Below are positions 6,045 to 19,419 of a stretch of DNA of 35,528 bases, piece by piece. The stretch spans positions 1 through 35,528 of the forward strand of contig NZ_AUCD01000014.1 in the NCBI RefSeq assembly GCF_000429585.1. The letters are read 5' to 3'. A model generated the notes under the pieces. That model was not told where the DNA came from. It made no database searches and was given only the letters and a program-made list of their open reading frames with translations. Source of the DNA: Atopococcus tabaci DSM 17538. GTDB lineage: Bacteria; Bacillota; Bacilli; Lactobacillales; Carnobacteriaceae_A. The number at the start of each line of letters is the position of its first letter. Within the stretch, counting starts at the first letter, position 1. Position numbers and translations under genes: made by a program.

Positions 6045-6577
6045 CAGCAGTATTTCACTAGTGGCTTTAATGGATGGGTGCCGAATCGATTTTCAAGATG
6101 CAGCAAAATTCCGGCGCATGCCCGGCTGTCATCCAATGCGTGGTGATGACGGTTCAAAGGAATATTCAAGTATTCCGATACGGTATTCAACTTATGGTTA
6201 GGCAGCTCTTTCAACAAACGTCGACTGGACTGGACGGTGCAGATTGTTTGGAAATGAGGTTTTTCAATCCCATAGTATTCCAATGTTCCCAGCAAAACAC
6301 CGCGGTCGAACGGCAAGTTGTGGGCCGCAATCAAGGAATGAGGTTGGAAGTGATGGCGGATTTCCTCCCATACTTCAGGGAAGCGGGGAGCATCGACAAC
6401 GTCTTGTTCGCGAATGCCGTGGATTTGTACATTCCGCCAATCAAAGAAGGTCTCCGGACGGATCAACGTATAATATTCATCCACCACTCGGCTGTCTTTC
6501 ACCACGGTCAAGGCAAGGGAACAGGCGCTGTGTCTTTGGCGGTTGGCTGTTTCAAAATCAATAGCGACAAAATTCAT
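6044..6577 (-). CDS. DnaQ-like 3'-5' exonuclease (DEDDh)
   Basis: A 177-residue nuclease of the DNA polymerase III epsilon/RNase T superfamily. Exo I is FVAIDFETANRQ (Asp and Glu bind metal), Exo II is AAHNLPFDRGVL, and Exo III-epsilon is HHALDDSRACAG (the H-x-D pair of DEDDh enzymes). It is free-standing, not fused to a polymerase or helicase, so it may act in proofreading, repair or RNA turnover. The frame is open 16 codons further upstream, but GGAGGTGCCGCAA just before 6577 fixes the start at MNFVAIDFE. Monocistronic, with its own terminator. Confidence 0.88.
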   Translation of the reverse strand: MNFVAIDFETANRQRHSACSLALTVVKDSRVVDEYYTLIRPETFFDWRNVQIHGIREQDVVDAPRFPEVWEEIRHHFQPHSLIAAHNLPFDRGVLLGTLEYYGIEKPHFQTICTVQSSRRLLKELPNHKLNTVSEYLNIPLNRHHHALDDSRACAGILLHLENRFGTHPLKPLVKYC

Positions 6578-6725
6578 TTGCGGCACCTCCGAACATATAT
6601 TCTTGTCTAGTATACCAAAAAACAAGAAATGTAACAGAGGTTTTTTTATGAACGTTCAGTGTGTTTACCGCCAATTCATCATCAGCCGTCGCCGTGCTCG
6701 TGATTCGTTTTTCTCGTGGAATCGG

Positions 6726-6753
6726 CTGACCCGCCGGCAAAGTGTACGATAAT
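6726..6753 (+). promoter_or_regulatory. Candidate promoter of the GH4 gene
   Basis: CTGACC (6726-6731), a 16-base spacer and GATAAT (6748-6753). The 100-base leader that follows contains the palindrome ACAGTAAACTGT (6800-6811) inside a larger TCCAC/GTGGA arm pair, a possible operator. No clean cre box was found. Confidence 0.35.
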
Positions 6754-6852
6754 GGGAGGAACAACAGCTTAGGAAAAAGCTTGCTTTGTATGGAGGTCCA
6801 CAGTAAACTGTAAGTGTGGAAAAGGCTTTCATCAAAAGGTAGGAGGAGACAA

Positions 6853-8280
6853 ATGAGCAGAGAAGCATTGAAGATTGTGACAATCGGTGGCGGAAGCAGT
6901 TATACTCCTGAATTGATTGAAGGATACATCAAGCGCAAGGATCAACTGCCCATCAAAGAGATTGTGTTGGTTGATATCGAAGAAGGAAAAGAAAAACTGA
7001 ATATCGTCGGCGAGATGGCTAAACGGATGGTCAAAGCGGCTGGGTTGGATTGGAACGTGACATTGACACTGGACCGCAAAGCGGCGTTGAAAGATGCGGA
7101 CTATGTCACCACCCAGTTCCGGGTGGGATTGTTGGATGCACGGGTGAAAGACGAGCGCATTCCACTGTCGCACGGCATTTTGGGACAGGAGACGAACGGA
7201 GCCGGCGGCATTTTCAAAGCATTCCGTACCATTCCGGTGATTTTGGATATCATCGAAGACATGAAAGAACAATGTCCGGATGCGTGGCTCATCAACTTCA
7301 CCAACCCGGCCGGCATGGTCACGGAAGCGGCCATCAAATACGGCGGTTGGGAACGGACATTGGGCTTATGTAACGTGCCGATCGGGCATTGCTCGATGGC
7401 GGCGGAAAAACTCGGAGTTCCAGAAGAAGAGTTGTTCTTCAAGTTTGCCGGAATCAACCACTTCCATTGGCACCGGGTATGGGACAAGCGCGGAAACGAA
7501 TTGACAGACAAAGTGATCGACCTCATCTACGGGCCAAAAGATGAGGAGCAGGAGAGCCACTTGAAAAACATCCACAACGCCCAATTCCACTATGAGCAAA
7601 TCAAAGACTTGGGAATGCTGCCATGTGGGTACCACCGCTATTATTACATTGAAGACGAAATGCTGCAGCACTCCATAGAGGATTTCGAAAAAGGGCAGAC
7701 CCGTGCCCAGGTGGTGAAGCAGACGGAAGCGCGTTTGTTCGAACTCTACAAAGACCCGAAATTGGACTTCAAACCGGAAGAACTTTCCCAGCGCGGAGGC
7801 ACACACTACAGCGATGCGGCATGTGAGATCATCGCGTCCATTCAAAACGACAAACGGACGAACATGGTTGTATCCACACAAAACAATGGTACCATCACTG
7901 ATTTGCCGTATGACTGCGCAGTGGAAGTATCTGGAGTGGTCACCGCCCATGGGTTTGAACCGTACAATTGGGGCGCTTTCCCGAATGCGTCCGCACGAGG
8001 TGTGATTCAAAACATGAAAGGGATGGAAGAAACTACCATCCGCGCAGCGGTGGAAGGAGACTACGGTGCTGCTTTGCAGGCCTTTACCGTCAACCCATTG
8101 ATACCAGGCGGAACCATCGCCAAGACATTATTGGACCAAATGTTGTACGCACACAAAGATCATCTCCCGCAATTCGCCGACAAAATTAAAGAAATCGAAG
8201 AAACGCAACCCGAAACAGTGGCGTATGTCGATGAGTTGATGGAAACCAATGAAGGGACGCTTGCAGAACATATGAAATAA
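6853..8280 (+). CDS. 6-phospho-beta-glucosidase, glycoside hydrolase family 4
   Basis: NAD- and Mn-dependent hydrolase that splits phosphorylated disaccharides delivered by a PTS. The 475-residue product begins with the Rossmann motif IVTIGGGSSYTPEL. It has NGAGGIFKAFRTIP, FTNPAGMV, the metal-binding Cys in GLCNVPIGHC and the FAGINHFHW block that supplies His. CN(V)P at the metal Cys is what beta-specific family-4 enzymes such as CelF/LicH carry, as opposed to the CDMP of alpha-specific ones, hence the beta call. The frame is open 13 codons upstream, but AGGAGGAGACAA sets the start at 6853. No PTS gene is adjacent, so substrate delivery depends on a transporter elsewhere. Confidence 0.9.
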   Translation: MSREALKIVTIGGGSSYTPELIEGYIKRKDQLPIKEIVLVDIEEGKEKLNIVGEMAKRMVKAAGLDWNVTLTLDRKAALKDADYVTTQFRVGLLDARVKDERIPLSHGILGQETNGAGGIFKAFRTIPVILDIIEDMKEQCPDAWLINFTNPAGMVTEAAIKYGGWERTLGLCNVPIGHCSMAAEKLGVPEEELFFKFAGINHFHWHRVWDKRGNELTDKVIDLIYGPKDEEQESHLKNIHNAQFHYEQIKDLGMLPCGYHRYYYIEDEMLQHSIEDFEKGQTRAQVVKQTEARLFELYKDPKLDFKPEELSQRGGTHYSDAACEIIASIQNDKRTNMVVSTQNNGTITDLPYDCAVEVSGVVTAHGFEPYNWGAFPNASARGVIQNMKGMEETTIRAAVEGDYGAALQAFTVNPLIPGGTIAKTLLDQMLYAHKDHLPQFADKIKEIEETQPETVAYVDELMETNEGTLAEHMK

Positions 8281-8283
8281 AAG

Positions 8284-8320
8284 AAACGCCTGCCCGATTT
8301 AATTCTGGGCAGGCGTTTTT
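8284..8320 (+). terminator. Intrinsic terminator of the GH4 gene
   Basis: AAACGCCTGCCC pairs with GGGCAGGCGTTT around an 11-base loop and is followed by T's. Confidence 0.9.
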
Positions 8321-8326
8321 ATGCGT

Positions 8327-8560
8327 TGAACAACCTTCTCAATGTACCTATTTGAAATAGAGTGCCGTTATTTCTTTTGAGAAGCCGCCTCAAAAAAAGA
8401 GATAACTGAAGGCAGGGGACAGTATTTCGTGTGAGAACGCGTCTCAGAGCAAATAATCCATGATTGGCTCAAATAAGTCTCTTGAGAACCCTTCTCGAAG
8501 GAACTATCTTATAAAGTTGGAATGTATTTCGTTTGAGCAAAGAGTGTACAACTAAAAGCA
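8327..8560. repeat. Five degenerate units with 51-54-nt period, each headed by a small palindrome
   Basis: Palindrome-like cores start at 8327 (TGAACAACCTTCTCA), 8378 (TGAGAAGCCGCCTCA), 8432 (TGAGAACGCGTCTCA), 8483 (TGAGAACCCTTCTCG) and 8534 (TGAGCAAAGAG, decayed). The intervals are 51, 54, 51 and 51 bases. Three of the four full units end in a variant of GTATTTCGTT before the next core. The array fills the gap between the GH4 terminator and the end of the P-type ATPase gene. The spacers are not conserved enough for CRISPR, and no coding frame runs through it. Confidence 0.6.
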
Positions 8561-8630: not shown

Positions 8631-11270
8631 TTAACCTTCTTTGGACGGCAACACGAGTTTGCCAATTTCCATGATGATCACAGAAGCAAGGGCCAATCCA
8701 GCAGCGATACCCCATTGAGTCAGTCCGAATTCAGCAGGAATGTTGAAGATTGGACGAATCGCAGGAACCATTGTCATTGCGTACAATCCCATACAGAAGA
8801 TGAACGCGTAGATGACGTATTTGTTTGCGAAGAAACCGGCTTGAACAGCGGTTTGTGAATTGGAACGAGCCGGGAACACTTGAAGTGTCCGAGCCAAAAT
8901 CAAGGTAGTGAACGCCATGGCGATACTCATGTCTGCAGAGTATTGCAAACCGATCGCTTGGGAAATGATGACGGCGATACCAATCAAAGCACCTCTGAAT
9001 ACAACAGAAGAAAGGGTGCCGCCTGCGAAGATCCCTTCATTTGGATCACGCGGGGATTGCTTCATGATGTTCGGTTCGCTTGGTTCCATACCAAGTGCAA
9101 TAGCCGGTACGGAGTCGTTTACCAAGTTGATGAACAACAACTGCAACGCAGTGAACGGGGAAACCCAGTTCAAAAGCAACGCAGCGATGATGGCAATAAC
9201 CGCACCCAAGTTTCCGGAGAACAAATACGCAATGGCTTTTTTGATGTTGTTGTAAACGTTACGTCCAACAGACACGGCACTGACAATGGAGACGAAGTTG
9301 TCGTCCGTCAAAACCATGGCAGCAGAGTCTTTTGCAACGTCTGTTCCGCTTCCCATCGCGATTCCGATGTCGGCTTGTTTCAATGCTGGTGCATCGTTGA
9401 CGCCGTCACCTGTCATAGCAGAAACCTTGCCTTTTTTCTGCCAAGCGTCGACAATCCGGATTTTGTTTTCCGGTGACACACGTGCGTAGACAGAAATTTT
9501 CTCAAGGTCTTTGTGCAATTCTTCGTCAGACAGGGCGTCCAACTCTTGTCCGGTCAATGCCATGTCGCCTTCTTTATAGATGTTCAAGTCTCTGGCGATG
9601 GCACGAGCGGTTGTTTTATGGTCTCCAGTAATCATGACGGTCTTGATGCCGGCAGCTTCCGCTTCTTGAATGGCTGAGTAAACTTCTTCACGAGGCGGAT
9701 CGATCATCGCCATCAAACCGACGAATACCAAATCATTTTCATCTTCAAACGTTACTTCTTGGCCTTCAGCAATTGGTTTGTAAGCAAATGCCAACACACG
9801 GAGGGCACGGTCGGAGAAGCGTTCGTTCTGTTCTTGAAGTGCCTTCAAGTGCTCGTCCGTAAAGTCTTCCACTTGGCCGTTGATCAAGATTTTTGAGGAG
9901 CGGCCAAAGACGATATCAGGTCCACCTTTTGTAAGAAGAACGGATTCTCCGTCAAGGTTGTGGACAGTGGACATCAACTTACGGTCGGAGTCGAAAGGCA
10001 ATTCACCTAAACGAGGGTAAGTTTTACGAACATCCTCGTAAGGTTGGTTCATTTTATTGCTGTAAGCCACCATCGCCACTTCTGTCGGGTCACCGATGGA
10101 GTGGCCGTCTTCGTTGATGCTGGAGTCATTGGCCAATACAGCAATCTGCATCAAACGTTTTTCATCAAAAGACCAAGTCTCCGGCTGGTCGTTGAAGTCT
10201 CCGGTTTGGCCGTTTGGCAGGAAGTAGTCGACAATTGTCATTTTGTTTTGCGTCAATGTTCCAGTTTTGTCGGTACAAATGATGCTGGTGGATCCCAACG
10301 TTTCCACTGCCGGGAGTTTGCGGATAATCGCATGTTTTTTCGCCATTTTGCTTGTTCCGACGGATAAAACGATGGTGACGATGGACTGCAAAGCTTCAGG
10401 AATCGCCGCAACTGCTACAGCAACCGCGAACATGAAGGCGTCCAACAACTGTGTTTGGACTGCTTGAGATTCTCCAAACAGAATACGTACAGCTTGAATT
10501 CCGAAAATCAACACAGAGAGAAGCAAGATGAAGACTCCCAATTTTTTACTGAAGTCTTCTAATTTACGTTGCAACGGGGTTTGTTTTGCACCTGCGCTGT
10601 GAATCAGGTCCGCAACTTTACCCATTTCAGTGTCGTTTCCAGTAGCTGTAACGACAAACTCACCGCGGCCGTAAGTGACCAGTGTTCCGCTGAACACCAT
10701 GTTGGTCCGGTCACCTAAAGGAACCTCTTGCACTAATTGGTCAGGATTTTTTTGAGTTGGAACGGATTCCCCAGTCAACATGCCTTCTTCAATTTGCAAG
10801 GATCCGGTGTCCAACAAACGTCCGTCTGCAGGAACATAATCGCCTGCTTCTAATACAACGATGTCTCCGACAACCACTTCTTTCGCAGGAATGGTCACTG
10901 TTTTGCCATCCCGGATAACTTTGGCGGCAGGAGCGGATAAGTTTCGTAATGAATTCAATGAATCTTCTGCTTTTTTGGTTTGGACCACACTCAAAATGGA
11001 GTTGATGATCAACACTGCAAAGATGATCACTGATTCAACGACTTCGCCCAAGAACAGCTGGACGAGTGCTACGATAAGTAACACAATCACCATTGGATCT
11101 TTGAATGATTCGATAAACAATTGAAGAGTCGATGCCGATTCACCTTGCTCGATTTCATTTAAGCCATCGCGTTCAAGTCTACGTTGAACTTCTTGCTGCT
11201 TGAGACCCTCACGATACGTTTGATACTCTTGAATAATTTGAGGAATAGACTTCTGATATACTTCCAACAC
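8631..11270 (-). CDS. P-type cation-transporting ATPase (Ca2+/Mn2+ exporter type)
   Basis: An 879-residue P2A-type membrane pump. Landmarks are TGES in the actuator domain (166-169), phosphorylation motif CTDKTGTLTQNKM with Asp334, TGDGVND hinge, and about ten membrane segments. In helix M4 the usual PEGLP reads PEALQ (291-295). In M6 NLVND keeps the Asn and Asp cation ligands. The family exports Ca2+, Mn2+ or both. The upstream Mn-type riboswitch suggests manganese detoxification here. The start is GTG at 11270 or the next codon TTG at 11267; AAGGAAG spacing slightly favours the latter. Monocistronic. Confidence 0.92.
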   Translation of the reverse strand: MLEVYQKSIPQIIQEYQTYREGLKQQEVQRRLERDGLNEIEQGESASTLQLFIESFKDPMVIVLLIVALVQLFLGEVVESVIIFAVLIINSILSVVQTKKAEDSLNSLRNLSAPAAKVIRDGKTVTIPAKEVVVGDIVVLEAGDYVPADGRLLDTGSLQIEEGMLTGESVPTQKNPDQLVQEVPLGDRTNMVFSGTLVTYGRGEFVVTATGNDTEMGKVADLIHSAGAKQTPLQRKLEDFSKKLGVFILLLSVLIFGIQAVRILFGESQAVQTQLLDAFMFAVAVAVAAIPEALQSIVTIVLSVGTSKMAKKHAIIRKLPAVETLGSTSIICTDKTGTLTQNKMTIVDYFLPNGQTGDFNDQPETWSFDEKRLMQIAVLANDSSINEDGHSIGDPTEVAMVAYSNKMNQPYEDVRKTYPRLGELPFDSDRKLMSTVHNLDGESVLLTKGGPDIVFGRSSKILINGQVEDFTDEHLKALQEQNERFSDRALRVLAFAYKPIAEGQEVTFEDENDLVFVGLMAMIDPPREEVYSAIQEAEAAGIKTVMITGDHKTTARAIARDLNIYKEGDMALTGQELDALSDEELHKDLEKISVYARVSPENKIRIVDAWQKKGKVSAMTGDGVNDAPALKQADIGIAMGSGTDVAKDSAAMVLTDDNFVSIVSAVSVGRNVYNNIKKAIAYLFSGNLGAVIAIIAALLLNWVSPFTALQLLFINLVNDSVPAIALGMEPSEPNIMKQSPRDPNEGIFAGGTLSSVVFRGALIGIAVIISQAIGLQYSADMSIAMAFTTLILARTLQVFPARSNSQTAVQAGFFANKYVIYAFIFCMGLYAMTMVPAIRPIFNIPAEFGLTQWGIAAGLALASVIIMEIGKLVLPSKEG

Positions 11271-15408: not shown

Positions 15409-16170
15409 TTAAATCGGTAAATCGATTTGAAGTTCCACCGGGCAATGGTCCGATCCCATAATGGAAGAATGGATGACTGCGTCCACCATATAAGGCTGCA
15501 GGCGGTCAGAGACGATAAAGTAGTCGATACGCCAGCCGGCATTGTTTTTTCGGGCATTGAACCGGTAATTCCACCATGTATAAGCGCCCTCTTTGTCGGA
15601 ATAGAAGTAACGGAACGTATCCGTGAATCCGTGGTCCAACAAACGAGTGAATTCCAAGCGTTCCTCATCGGAAAATCCAGCGCTGGTCCGGTTGCGGGAA
15701 GGGTTCTTCAAGTCAATTTCTTTGTGGGCAACGTTCAAATCACCGCAGAGAATGACGGGTTTTTCCGCATCCAACTGATTGATGTACGCCCGGAAGTCTT
15801 TTTCCCACTGGACCCGGTAATCCAACCGGTTCAATTCGCTTTGGGAATTGGGTGTGTAACAGGTGACAACATAAAAAGTTTCATATTCCAATGTAATCAC
15901 ACGGCCTTCCGTGTCGTGTTCCGGGATTCCTATTCCATACTTTACGGAAACCGGTCGGTGTTTGGTGAAAATCGCCGTTCCCGAATAGCCTTTACGTTCT
16001 GCATAATTCCAATAGTCATAGTACCCGGGCAAATCCAATTCAATCTGTCCTTCTTGCAGTTTCGTTTCTTGTACACAAAAGAAATCGGCATCTGATGCTG
16101 CAAAAAATTCCATGAATCCTTTTTTGACAATGGCTCTCAAGCCGTTCACATTCCATGAAACTAACTTCAT
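15409..16170 (-). CDS. exoA: Exodeoxyribonuclease III / AP endonuclease
   Basis: Cuts at abasic sites and removes 3'-blocking groups in base-excision repair, downstream of glycosylases such as Ung. The 253-residue product shows the EEP-fold blocks MKLVSWNVNGLRA (metal-site Asn), CVQETKLQEGQ (catalytic Glu), YSGTAIFTK, VILCGDLNVAHKEIDLKNP (Asp and Asn), AGFSDEER and the terminal GSDHCPVELQ (catalytic Asp-His). The frame is open eight codons upstream, but AAGGAGACTGAAGCG sets the start at 16170. Monocistronic. Confidence 0.96.
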   Translation of the reverse strand: MKLVSWNVNGLRAIVKKGFMEFFAASDADFFCVQETKLQEGQIELDLPGYYDYWNYAERKGYSGTAIFTKHRPVSVKYGIGIPEHDTEGRVITLEYETFYVVTCYTPNSQSELNRLDYRVQWEKDFRAYINQLDAEKPVILCGDLNVAHKEIDLKNPSRNRTSAGFSDEERLEFTRLLDHGFTDTFRYFYSDKEGAYTWWNYRFNARKNNAGWRIDYFIVSDRLQPYMVDAVIHSSIMGSDHCPVELQIDLPI

Positions 16171-18277: not shown

Positions 18278-18315
18278 TTAAATGAAATGTGAGTGAAAAG
18301 CGAGGAGTGTTGGAG

Positions 18316-19419
18316 ATGGCAGAAAATACAATCATTCGATTTGAAGACGTCAGCAAACGTTACGACGAGATGGAAGTGTTGAAAAGTGTGTCGTTTGATA
18401 TTGAACGGGGGAAGTTTTACACGCTTCTGGGTCCGTCCGGATGCGGGAAGACAACCATATTGAACTTGATAGCCGGATTCACTGATGCAACCAACGGGGA
18501 CATTTTGATTGATGGAAAAAAAGTCAATGATGTACCGCCGAACAAACGGAAAGTCAACACGGTGTTTCAAGATTATGCCTTGTTCCCGCACATGAATGTG
18601 TTTGAAAACATTGCGTTCGGTTTGCGAATCAAAAAGATGAACCAAAAGACAATCGAACAAAAAGTCTCTGAAGCACTGCGGATGATGCGGTTGGAAGGCT
18701 ATGCCAATCGGGACATCAGTGAAATGTCGGGCGGTCAGCGCCAGCGTGTAGCCATCGCCCGCGCATTGGTGAACGAACCGGACGTATTGCTGTTGGACGA
18801 ACCGCTCTCGGCTTTGGACTTGAAGCTCCGTACAGAGATGCAGTATGAATTGCGCGAATTGCAGCAACGTTTGGGCATCACGTTCATTTTTGTCACACAC
18901 GATCAAGAAGAAGCGTTGGCGATGAGTGACGAAATTTTTGTCATGAAAGAGGGCGAAATCGTTCAAAGCGGCACACCGGTCGATATTTACGACGAACCGA
19001 TCAACCGGTACGTGGCAGACTTCATCGGGGAAAGCAACATCGTCGAAGGCACGATGGTTGAAGACTACCGAGTGGCATTTGGCGGCAAAGTGTTCGAATG
19101 TGTGGACGGCGGGATGCGTCCAAACGAACGGGTTGAAGTGGTTGTCCGTCCGGAAGATTTGATTCTGACTTCTCCTGGAAGAGGAAACTTGGTCGTGAAA
19201 ATTGACACACAGTTGTTCCGTGGAGTTCACTATGAGATCATCGGTTACGATGAAGAAGGCAACGAATGGATGGTCCATTCCACACGCAGAGCGATTGTGG
19301 GGGAGCAGGTAGGGCTGTCGTTTGAGCCGCAGGACATTCACGTCATGCGGTTTGATGAAACAGAAGAAGAATTCGACGCCCGTATCGAAACGTATACGGA
19401 AGAAGGTGAGCGGGTGTGA
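18316..19419 (+). CDS. potA: Spermidine/putrescine ABC transporter ATP-binding protein
   Basis: ATPase of the polyamine importer. In its 367 residues are Walker [11 protein letters not shown]-loop [13 protein letters not shown], signature MSGGQRQR, Walker [12 protein letters not shown], switch His in VTHDQEEA, and a C-terminal TOBE-type regulatory domain from about residue 270 ([13 protein letters not shown]). The frame is open nine codons further up, but GAGGAGTGTTGGAG fixes ATG 18316. Its last bases overlap the potB start (GTGA), so all four pot genes are translationally coupled. Confidence 0.95.

Follow-up and report, generated by a model that had tools for sequence, protein, structure and literature searches.

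What kind of element is the row of degenerate palindromes that lies between two genes of Atopococcus tabaci DSM 17538, and why is its spacing so constant? The row was found in a window of 35,528 nucleotides (the whole of the DNA stretch analysed here; contig NZ_AUCD01000014.1), where positions 8310 to 8545 contain four degenerate palindromes of about 38 nt and one left half with spacings of 51, 54, 51 and 51 nt. As the preliminary description had stated, the row is located between the terminator of one gene and the 3' end of a convergent gene, the latter encoding a P-type ATPase. The features of the region are:

6814-8280, + strand: upstream flanking gene, glycosyl hydrolase family 4 (GH4; Pfam PF02056, PF11975)
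8284-8318, no strand assigned: terminator-like inverted repeat with 12-bp arms and an 11-nt loop, 3' of the GH4-family gene
8310-8360, + strand: unit 1, the weakest full unit; palindrome about 8315-8353, core 8326-8342; model match 35.8 bits (training unit)
8361-8414, + strand: unit 2, 54 nt; palindrome about 8366-8404, core 8377-8393; 42.1 bits (training unit)
8415-8465, + strand: unit 3; palindrome about 8420-8458, core 8431-8447; 43.4 bits (training unit)
8466-8516, + strand: unit 4; palindrome about 8471-8509, core 8482-8498; 46.0 bits (training unit)
8517-8545, + strand: truncated unit 5, left arm alone, GTATTTCGTTTGAG
8631-11270, - strand: downstream convergent gene, P-type cation ATPase (Pfam PF00122, PF00689)

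The stem at 8284-8318 is T-rich on both strands and might thus be bidirectional; it was overlooked by a simple terminator scan because the loop limit of that scan is 8. A unit of the row consists of a palindrome of about 38 nt with the consensus TATTTCnnTTGAGAAnnnTTCTCAAnnGAAATA and a spacer of about 13 nt, and is larger than initially recognized. A core search of the window recovered 17-mers with at most three mismatches to TTGAGAANNNTTCTCAA at 8326, 8377, 8431 and 8482; four of the five cores described at first thus belong to full units, whereas the fifth (8533-8534) is only a left half, TATTTCGTTTGAG. Likewise, the supposedly recurring lead-in resembling GTATTTCGTT is present in three of the five units but missing from the other two. 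The units are 48-51% identical to one another, and their periodicity is real: the best self-match of the array among lags 30 to 80 was 65/150 at lag 51, a value reached by none of 1000 dinucleotide shuffles (mean 53.5, maximum 64). The intervals are those noted before. Two possible extra cores at 16124 and 16174 of the window, 50 nt apart, fall within a coding frame or at its beginning and were judged to be chance matches.

The preliminary description had made its reading depend on further copies in the genome, and a DNA search of the A. tabaci genome found two further places, on contigs C3 and C6. Together with the decayed state of the palindrome units, these copies bear out the idea of a decaying, dispersed tandem element. 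A covariance model (R1), trained on 10 units from three arrays (window, C3, C6), found non-training units at E <= 0.01, for example on C23 (13554 with E 1.2e-6, 13707 and 13605), C45, C9 and C3 (34752). The C23 array, which is outside the training set, comprises four R1-found units with spacings of 51, 51 and 51; other non-training arrays are located on C9, C67, C45, C52 and at a second site on C3, and the weakest matches in the genome are those on C93 and C96. Seven arrays have two or more units recognized by R1; of their 14 spacings, 12 measure exactly 51 and the remaining two 54. Neighbours within an array resemble each other no more than units taken from separate arrays do (whole unit 0.51 versus 0.48, core 0.64 versus 0.61, outer arms 0.49 versus 0.47, spacer 0.34 versus 0.31), and yet the spacing is constant, which indicates that the period outlives the sequence. 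One of three other arrays of this array family that were tested, L011, was not significant in the shuffle test (124/300). Nine arrays of the family could be assigned to gene pairs by automatic gene calls (4 convergent, 4 tandem, 1 divergent); the association with convergent genes suggested by the single locus is thus no rule, and these mixed orientations also ruled out an early view of ours that arrays always follow the terminator of a same-strand gene. Most R1 matches that we read in other genomes looked like chance matches in coding regions (L131, L132, L134, L138) or ordinary terminators (L133, L137), the exception being a row of GAGTTGCTTAGAGAAGGGTTCTCTACGCAACTC in a relative (L130:1505-1660; G023:C4), whose units are spaced by 51.

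The units show dyad symmetry. In ten units from three arrays, 77.8% of the 18-bp stem is paired, compared with 37.8-47.8% for slid versions, and two-sided changes in the stem amount to 22 cells against a shuffle mean of 10.7, with 0 of 500 shuffles reaching 22. Beyond the consensus, the two arms of a training unit fit each other significantly (2/2000), whereas those of 11 held-out units pair no better with each other than with the arms of other units (346/2000). Arm-offset statistics of inverted repeats were too scattered to be used.

The gene pair flanking the row is kept in ten named relatives, and three relatives carry rows of other sequence at the orthologous position: Marinilactibacillus piezotolerans an array of 52 x 10, an Alkalibacterium metagenome-assembled genome (MAG) one of 51 x 7.5, and Desemzia incerta three palindromes whose centres are separated by 51 and 52. 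Only a short gap separates the two genes at L021, L026, L028 and L037, and L022, L024 and L025 contain other sequence there. Arrays thus come and go at one site. That the spacing is maintained in relatives although their array sequences mostly differ is the main point that goes beyond the view of a single window.

We extended this comparison by two surveys, one with Tandem Repeats Finder on named relatives and on sampled stretches of further relatives, the other with an ungapped self-match test that required 58% identity or more over 100 nt at lags of 25-89, a threshold for which the window array itself is too worn. Among 28 intergenic tandem matches in the sampled stretches of the window's taxonomic family (26 genomes, 1.49 Mb, 306 kb of it outside long frames), 22 are at lags 51-53; the other six are three tRNA clusters, a CRISPR-like array, an N run and a coding-like repeat. 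Family f5 (22 genomes, 600 kb) yielded 13 intergenic matches, with lags of 41 (four times), 50, 51, 52, 53 and 82 in addition to three tRNA matches and one N run, and other families (nine genomes, 320 kb) a single match at lag 38. The names Carnobacteriaceae and Aerococcaceae for sampled genomes were inferred from named relatives. We dropped from the intergenic tally lag 61 (the CRISPR-like array, L169), lags 78-88 (tRNA clusters; L171, L281, L288, L289), the lag 89 N runs (L281, L297) and a coding-like repeat at lag 30 (L288). Two matches inside called ORFs, L219 (lag 51; ORF of 159 amino acids) and L266 (lag 50; ORF of 165 amino acids), were not counted as intergenic, but L219 was nevertheless included in the arm-offset, hexamer, orientation and cluster analyses. 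Matches within reading frames serve as a control, since 16 of 18 have a lag divisible by three, as expected for coding repeats; L211 shows a 100% match at lag 89 within a called ORF.

The 22 named Carnobacteriaceae and Aerococcaceae loci contain seven intergenic arrays with lags of 52, 51, 51, 41, 84, 51 and 50, the lag of 84 being twice 42 according to Tandem Repeats Finder. The self-match test detected no intergenic array in 23 Enterococcus and Vagococcus loci and none between genes in 35 clostridial or other loci. The arrays are thus lineage-restricted in our sample. Classified by orientation, 21 survey matches comprise 14 tandem (the CRISPR-like array included), 5 convergent and 2 divergent cases, compared with 199 tandem, 41 convergent and 51 divergent background gaps. 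Many relatives have no arrays in their sampled stretches, and several lack one at the gene pair of the window, which indicates that a function, if any, can be dispensed with at an individual site.

Clustering of a hand-collected set of 44 arrays at a blastn E of 1e-4 resulted in 34 sequence clusters, with periods of 51 (16 arrays), 52 (18), 41 (5), 50 (2), and 42, 53 and 82 (one each). Nine clusters have two or more members, in four cases from different genomes, which points to some kinship across species. What the arrays share is a short half-site. ACTCAA/TTGAGT occurs in 13 of 27 arrays of the window's taxonomic family and in 6.7% of background windows (p 4e-9; 1169 hexamers tested); the p-values assume independent arrays, although a single genome contributed 9 of the 27 and there is kinship among some families. 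AACTCA/TGAGTT is found in 13 of the 27 arrays (background 7.5%) and AACTCG/CGAGTT in 9 (background 3.1%). Half-sites of the type (C/T)GAGTT are thus enriched, and the TTGAGAA of the window row is a neighbour of the enriched TTGAGT core.

The collected loci include several further kinds of rows. A second hairpin family in the A. tabaci genome (G000), AACTC...GAGTT, occurs at L016:945-1150 (C61; starts of AACTC spaced 51, 50 and 51 by reading) and L209:14182-14365 (C3); another, TCACTTTTACGTGAA...TTCACGnAAAAGTGA with a period of 52-53, lies between convergent genes at L208:18563-18736 and L209:8901-9077 (C3). On contig C7 of the same genome, L213 has three period-52 arrays within 20 kb (1318-1534, 6473-6902 and 18297-18545), with palindromes such as GAGTTTAACTTAGA/TCTAAGTTAAACTC. 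Long palindromes, GAGCCAGTGGACCACTCCGTCGAGTGGACCACTAGCTCGG, repeat with a period of 82 bp at L274:15293-15635 (G090), and two kinds of 52-bp units alternate at L173:10403-10855 (G012), giving a higher-order period of 104 bp. The array at L169:4983-5301 (G005; 61-bp period, repeat GGATCACCCCCGCGTGTGCGGGAAAGAC) was judged CRISPR-like from its look.

How can these observations be explained? A fixed period, a free sequence, dyads, a common short half-site and the occurrence in all gene orientations argue for an element acting as DNA rather than as RNA, and rows of mostly different sequence but nearly the same spacing in relatives hint that the spacing itself matters. By analogy with the gyrase-binding BIME-2 elements of Escherichia coli, which arrays of this class would resemble functionally, the most likely explanation is a row of sites for a putative dimeric protein or topoisomerase; a multi-site protein-binding array, as proposed at the outset, is therefore still the leading idea, with the binding protein being putative. 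Each unit would offer a pair of inverted half-sites, often with a (C/T)GAGTT core, and a period of 51-53 bp (41-42 bp in a minority) would set successive units on nearly one helix face. Units facing the same side might allow cooperative occupancy of the row by a protein that binds as a dimer or by an enzyme that wraps DNA, for instance a topoisomerase, and the row might then contribute to supercoiling or chromosome folding. Helical phasing as the reason for the period is likewise an inference. The period is near five DNA turns, as described at first, but the ratio 51/5 = 10.2 and the two spacings of 54 count against strict phasing. A quantization into about five turns at 51-53 and about four at 41-42 is suggestive only, because the gap between 41 and 51-52 rests on few independent families (G058, Atopostipes, Ruoffia). 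We thus tentatively regard the window row as a decayed member of a class of intergenic dyad arrays of Carnobacteriaceae-like and Aerococcaceae-like bacteria, with BIME-2-like sites about five turns apart for a candidate binding protein or topoisomerase.

The strongest competing explanation is that both the period and the palindromy arose by mutation. Replication slippage together with template switching at quasi-palindromes would create and homogenize units in tolerated intergenic DNA, where old arrays decay without function, and the length of about 51 bp would follow from the amplification mechanism, for example from hairpin size plus a fixed gap. Some arrays are indeed young and near-identical (93% matches in the Alkalibacterium MAG; L226, L295), sequences at one site turn over among species and are absent in others, no strong link to gene orientation exists, and correction of arms through template switching could mimic compensatory change. 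However, the decayed family of the window is still at 51 despite the loss of array-specific identity, whereas neutral decay should shift spacings too, and distinct sequence clusters have one narrow period and an enriched half-site in common. We therefore consider such minisatellites the less likely explanation, albeit a serious competitor. Considerably less probable is an RNA-level element, that is, rows of hairpins in 3' untranslated regions that stabilize transcripts or block read-through coming from the neighbouring gene. Hairpin-forming units with two-sided changes and the C6 row, which precedes a terminator-like stem, would fit; but the C9 row sits between two such stems (by reading), gene orientation is mixed with one divergent case, and strict periodicity would serve no evident purpose in RNA. 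Folded as single strands, the region of the row is unremarkable (z = -1.79 and -1.00 for the two strands), and the nine Rfam matches to the region up to E 10 include no CRISPR family and none close to its gathering score, most of them overlying the terminator stem, which also speaks against the small-RNA repeat considered earlier. Mobile REP- or MITE-type repeats spread by a Y1 (IS200/RAYT-like) transposase are very improbable, because four array-bearing genomes (G011, G012, G002, G058) have no Y1_Tnp match, even though the repeats are palindromic, dispersed and intergenic and the A. tabaci genome has five such matches (RAYT and IS200 types not separated). One of these five is full (C2) and four are truncated (C98, C5, C53, C25), some at contig ends; the truncated ones are likely IS200-type copies that broke the assembly.

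The preferred reading of DNA-level rows of dyad sites also has to be set against known systems. BIME-2 elements are bound and cut by gyrase according to two studies (PMC6379681; PMC2817692), and REP sequences carry a GTAG or CGTC tag at one repeat end according to a third (PMC3733652), which also mentions the EFAR elements of Enterococcus faecalis. Like the enterobacterial BIME-2/REP elements, proposed gyrase sites, the arrays are regularly spaced intergenic tandem palindromes, and the window family consists of 20-40 bp palindromes in several copies. In contrast, they lack a recurring terminal tag (at 8320-8560 of the window, read by eye, GTAG is absent and CGTC occurs once, within a core) and a general Y1 partner, and several unit sequences per genome share one period and GAGTT-type half-sites. 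EFAR elements are similar as modular small palindromic repeats of Lactobacillales, but the Enterococcus and Vagococcus loci sampled here are without arrays. They are insertion-like and mostly 170 bp long, and we know of no 51-bp rule for them. Minisatellites such as MIRU-type intergenic VNTRs consist of tandem units of about 50-80 bp between genes; unlike these, the arrays show dyad symmetry and a period surviving the loss of unit identity, and Tandem Repeats Finder reports many of the relatives' arrays but not the window array. CRISPR arrays also have palindromic repeats at regular spacing, but there near-identical direct repeats alternate with unique spacers, whereas the repeats here are degenerate and the palindromes only about 13 bp apart.

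Palindromic intergenic arrays as such are already known. A search of the open-access literature yielded, among the titles listed, no paper on the arrays described here or on a period shared by mostly unrelated sequences of two families. A wider proposition would be that Carnobacteriaceae and Aerococcaceae keep genome-wide dyad rows whose period is locked to four or five helical turns and whose sequence is almost entirely free except for a (C/T)GAGTT half-site, an architectural system with the period as the conserved signal for a candidate conserved DNA-binding protein or topoisomerase; in this full breadth we regard it as rather doubtful. Dispersed palindromes are usually recognized by their sequence, but here the period outlasts the sequence inside a single genome and reappears in arrays of two families that are mostly unrelated to one another, so that a phase-dependent DNA function becomes directly testable. 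If the period were instead the product of an amplification mechanism, it would tell how tandem palindromes arise.
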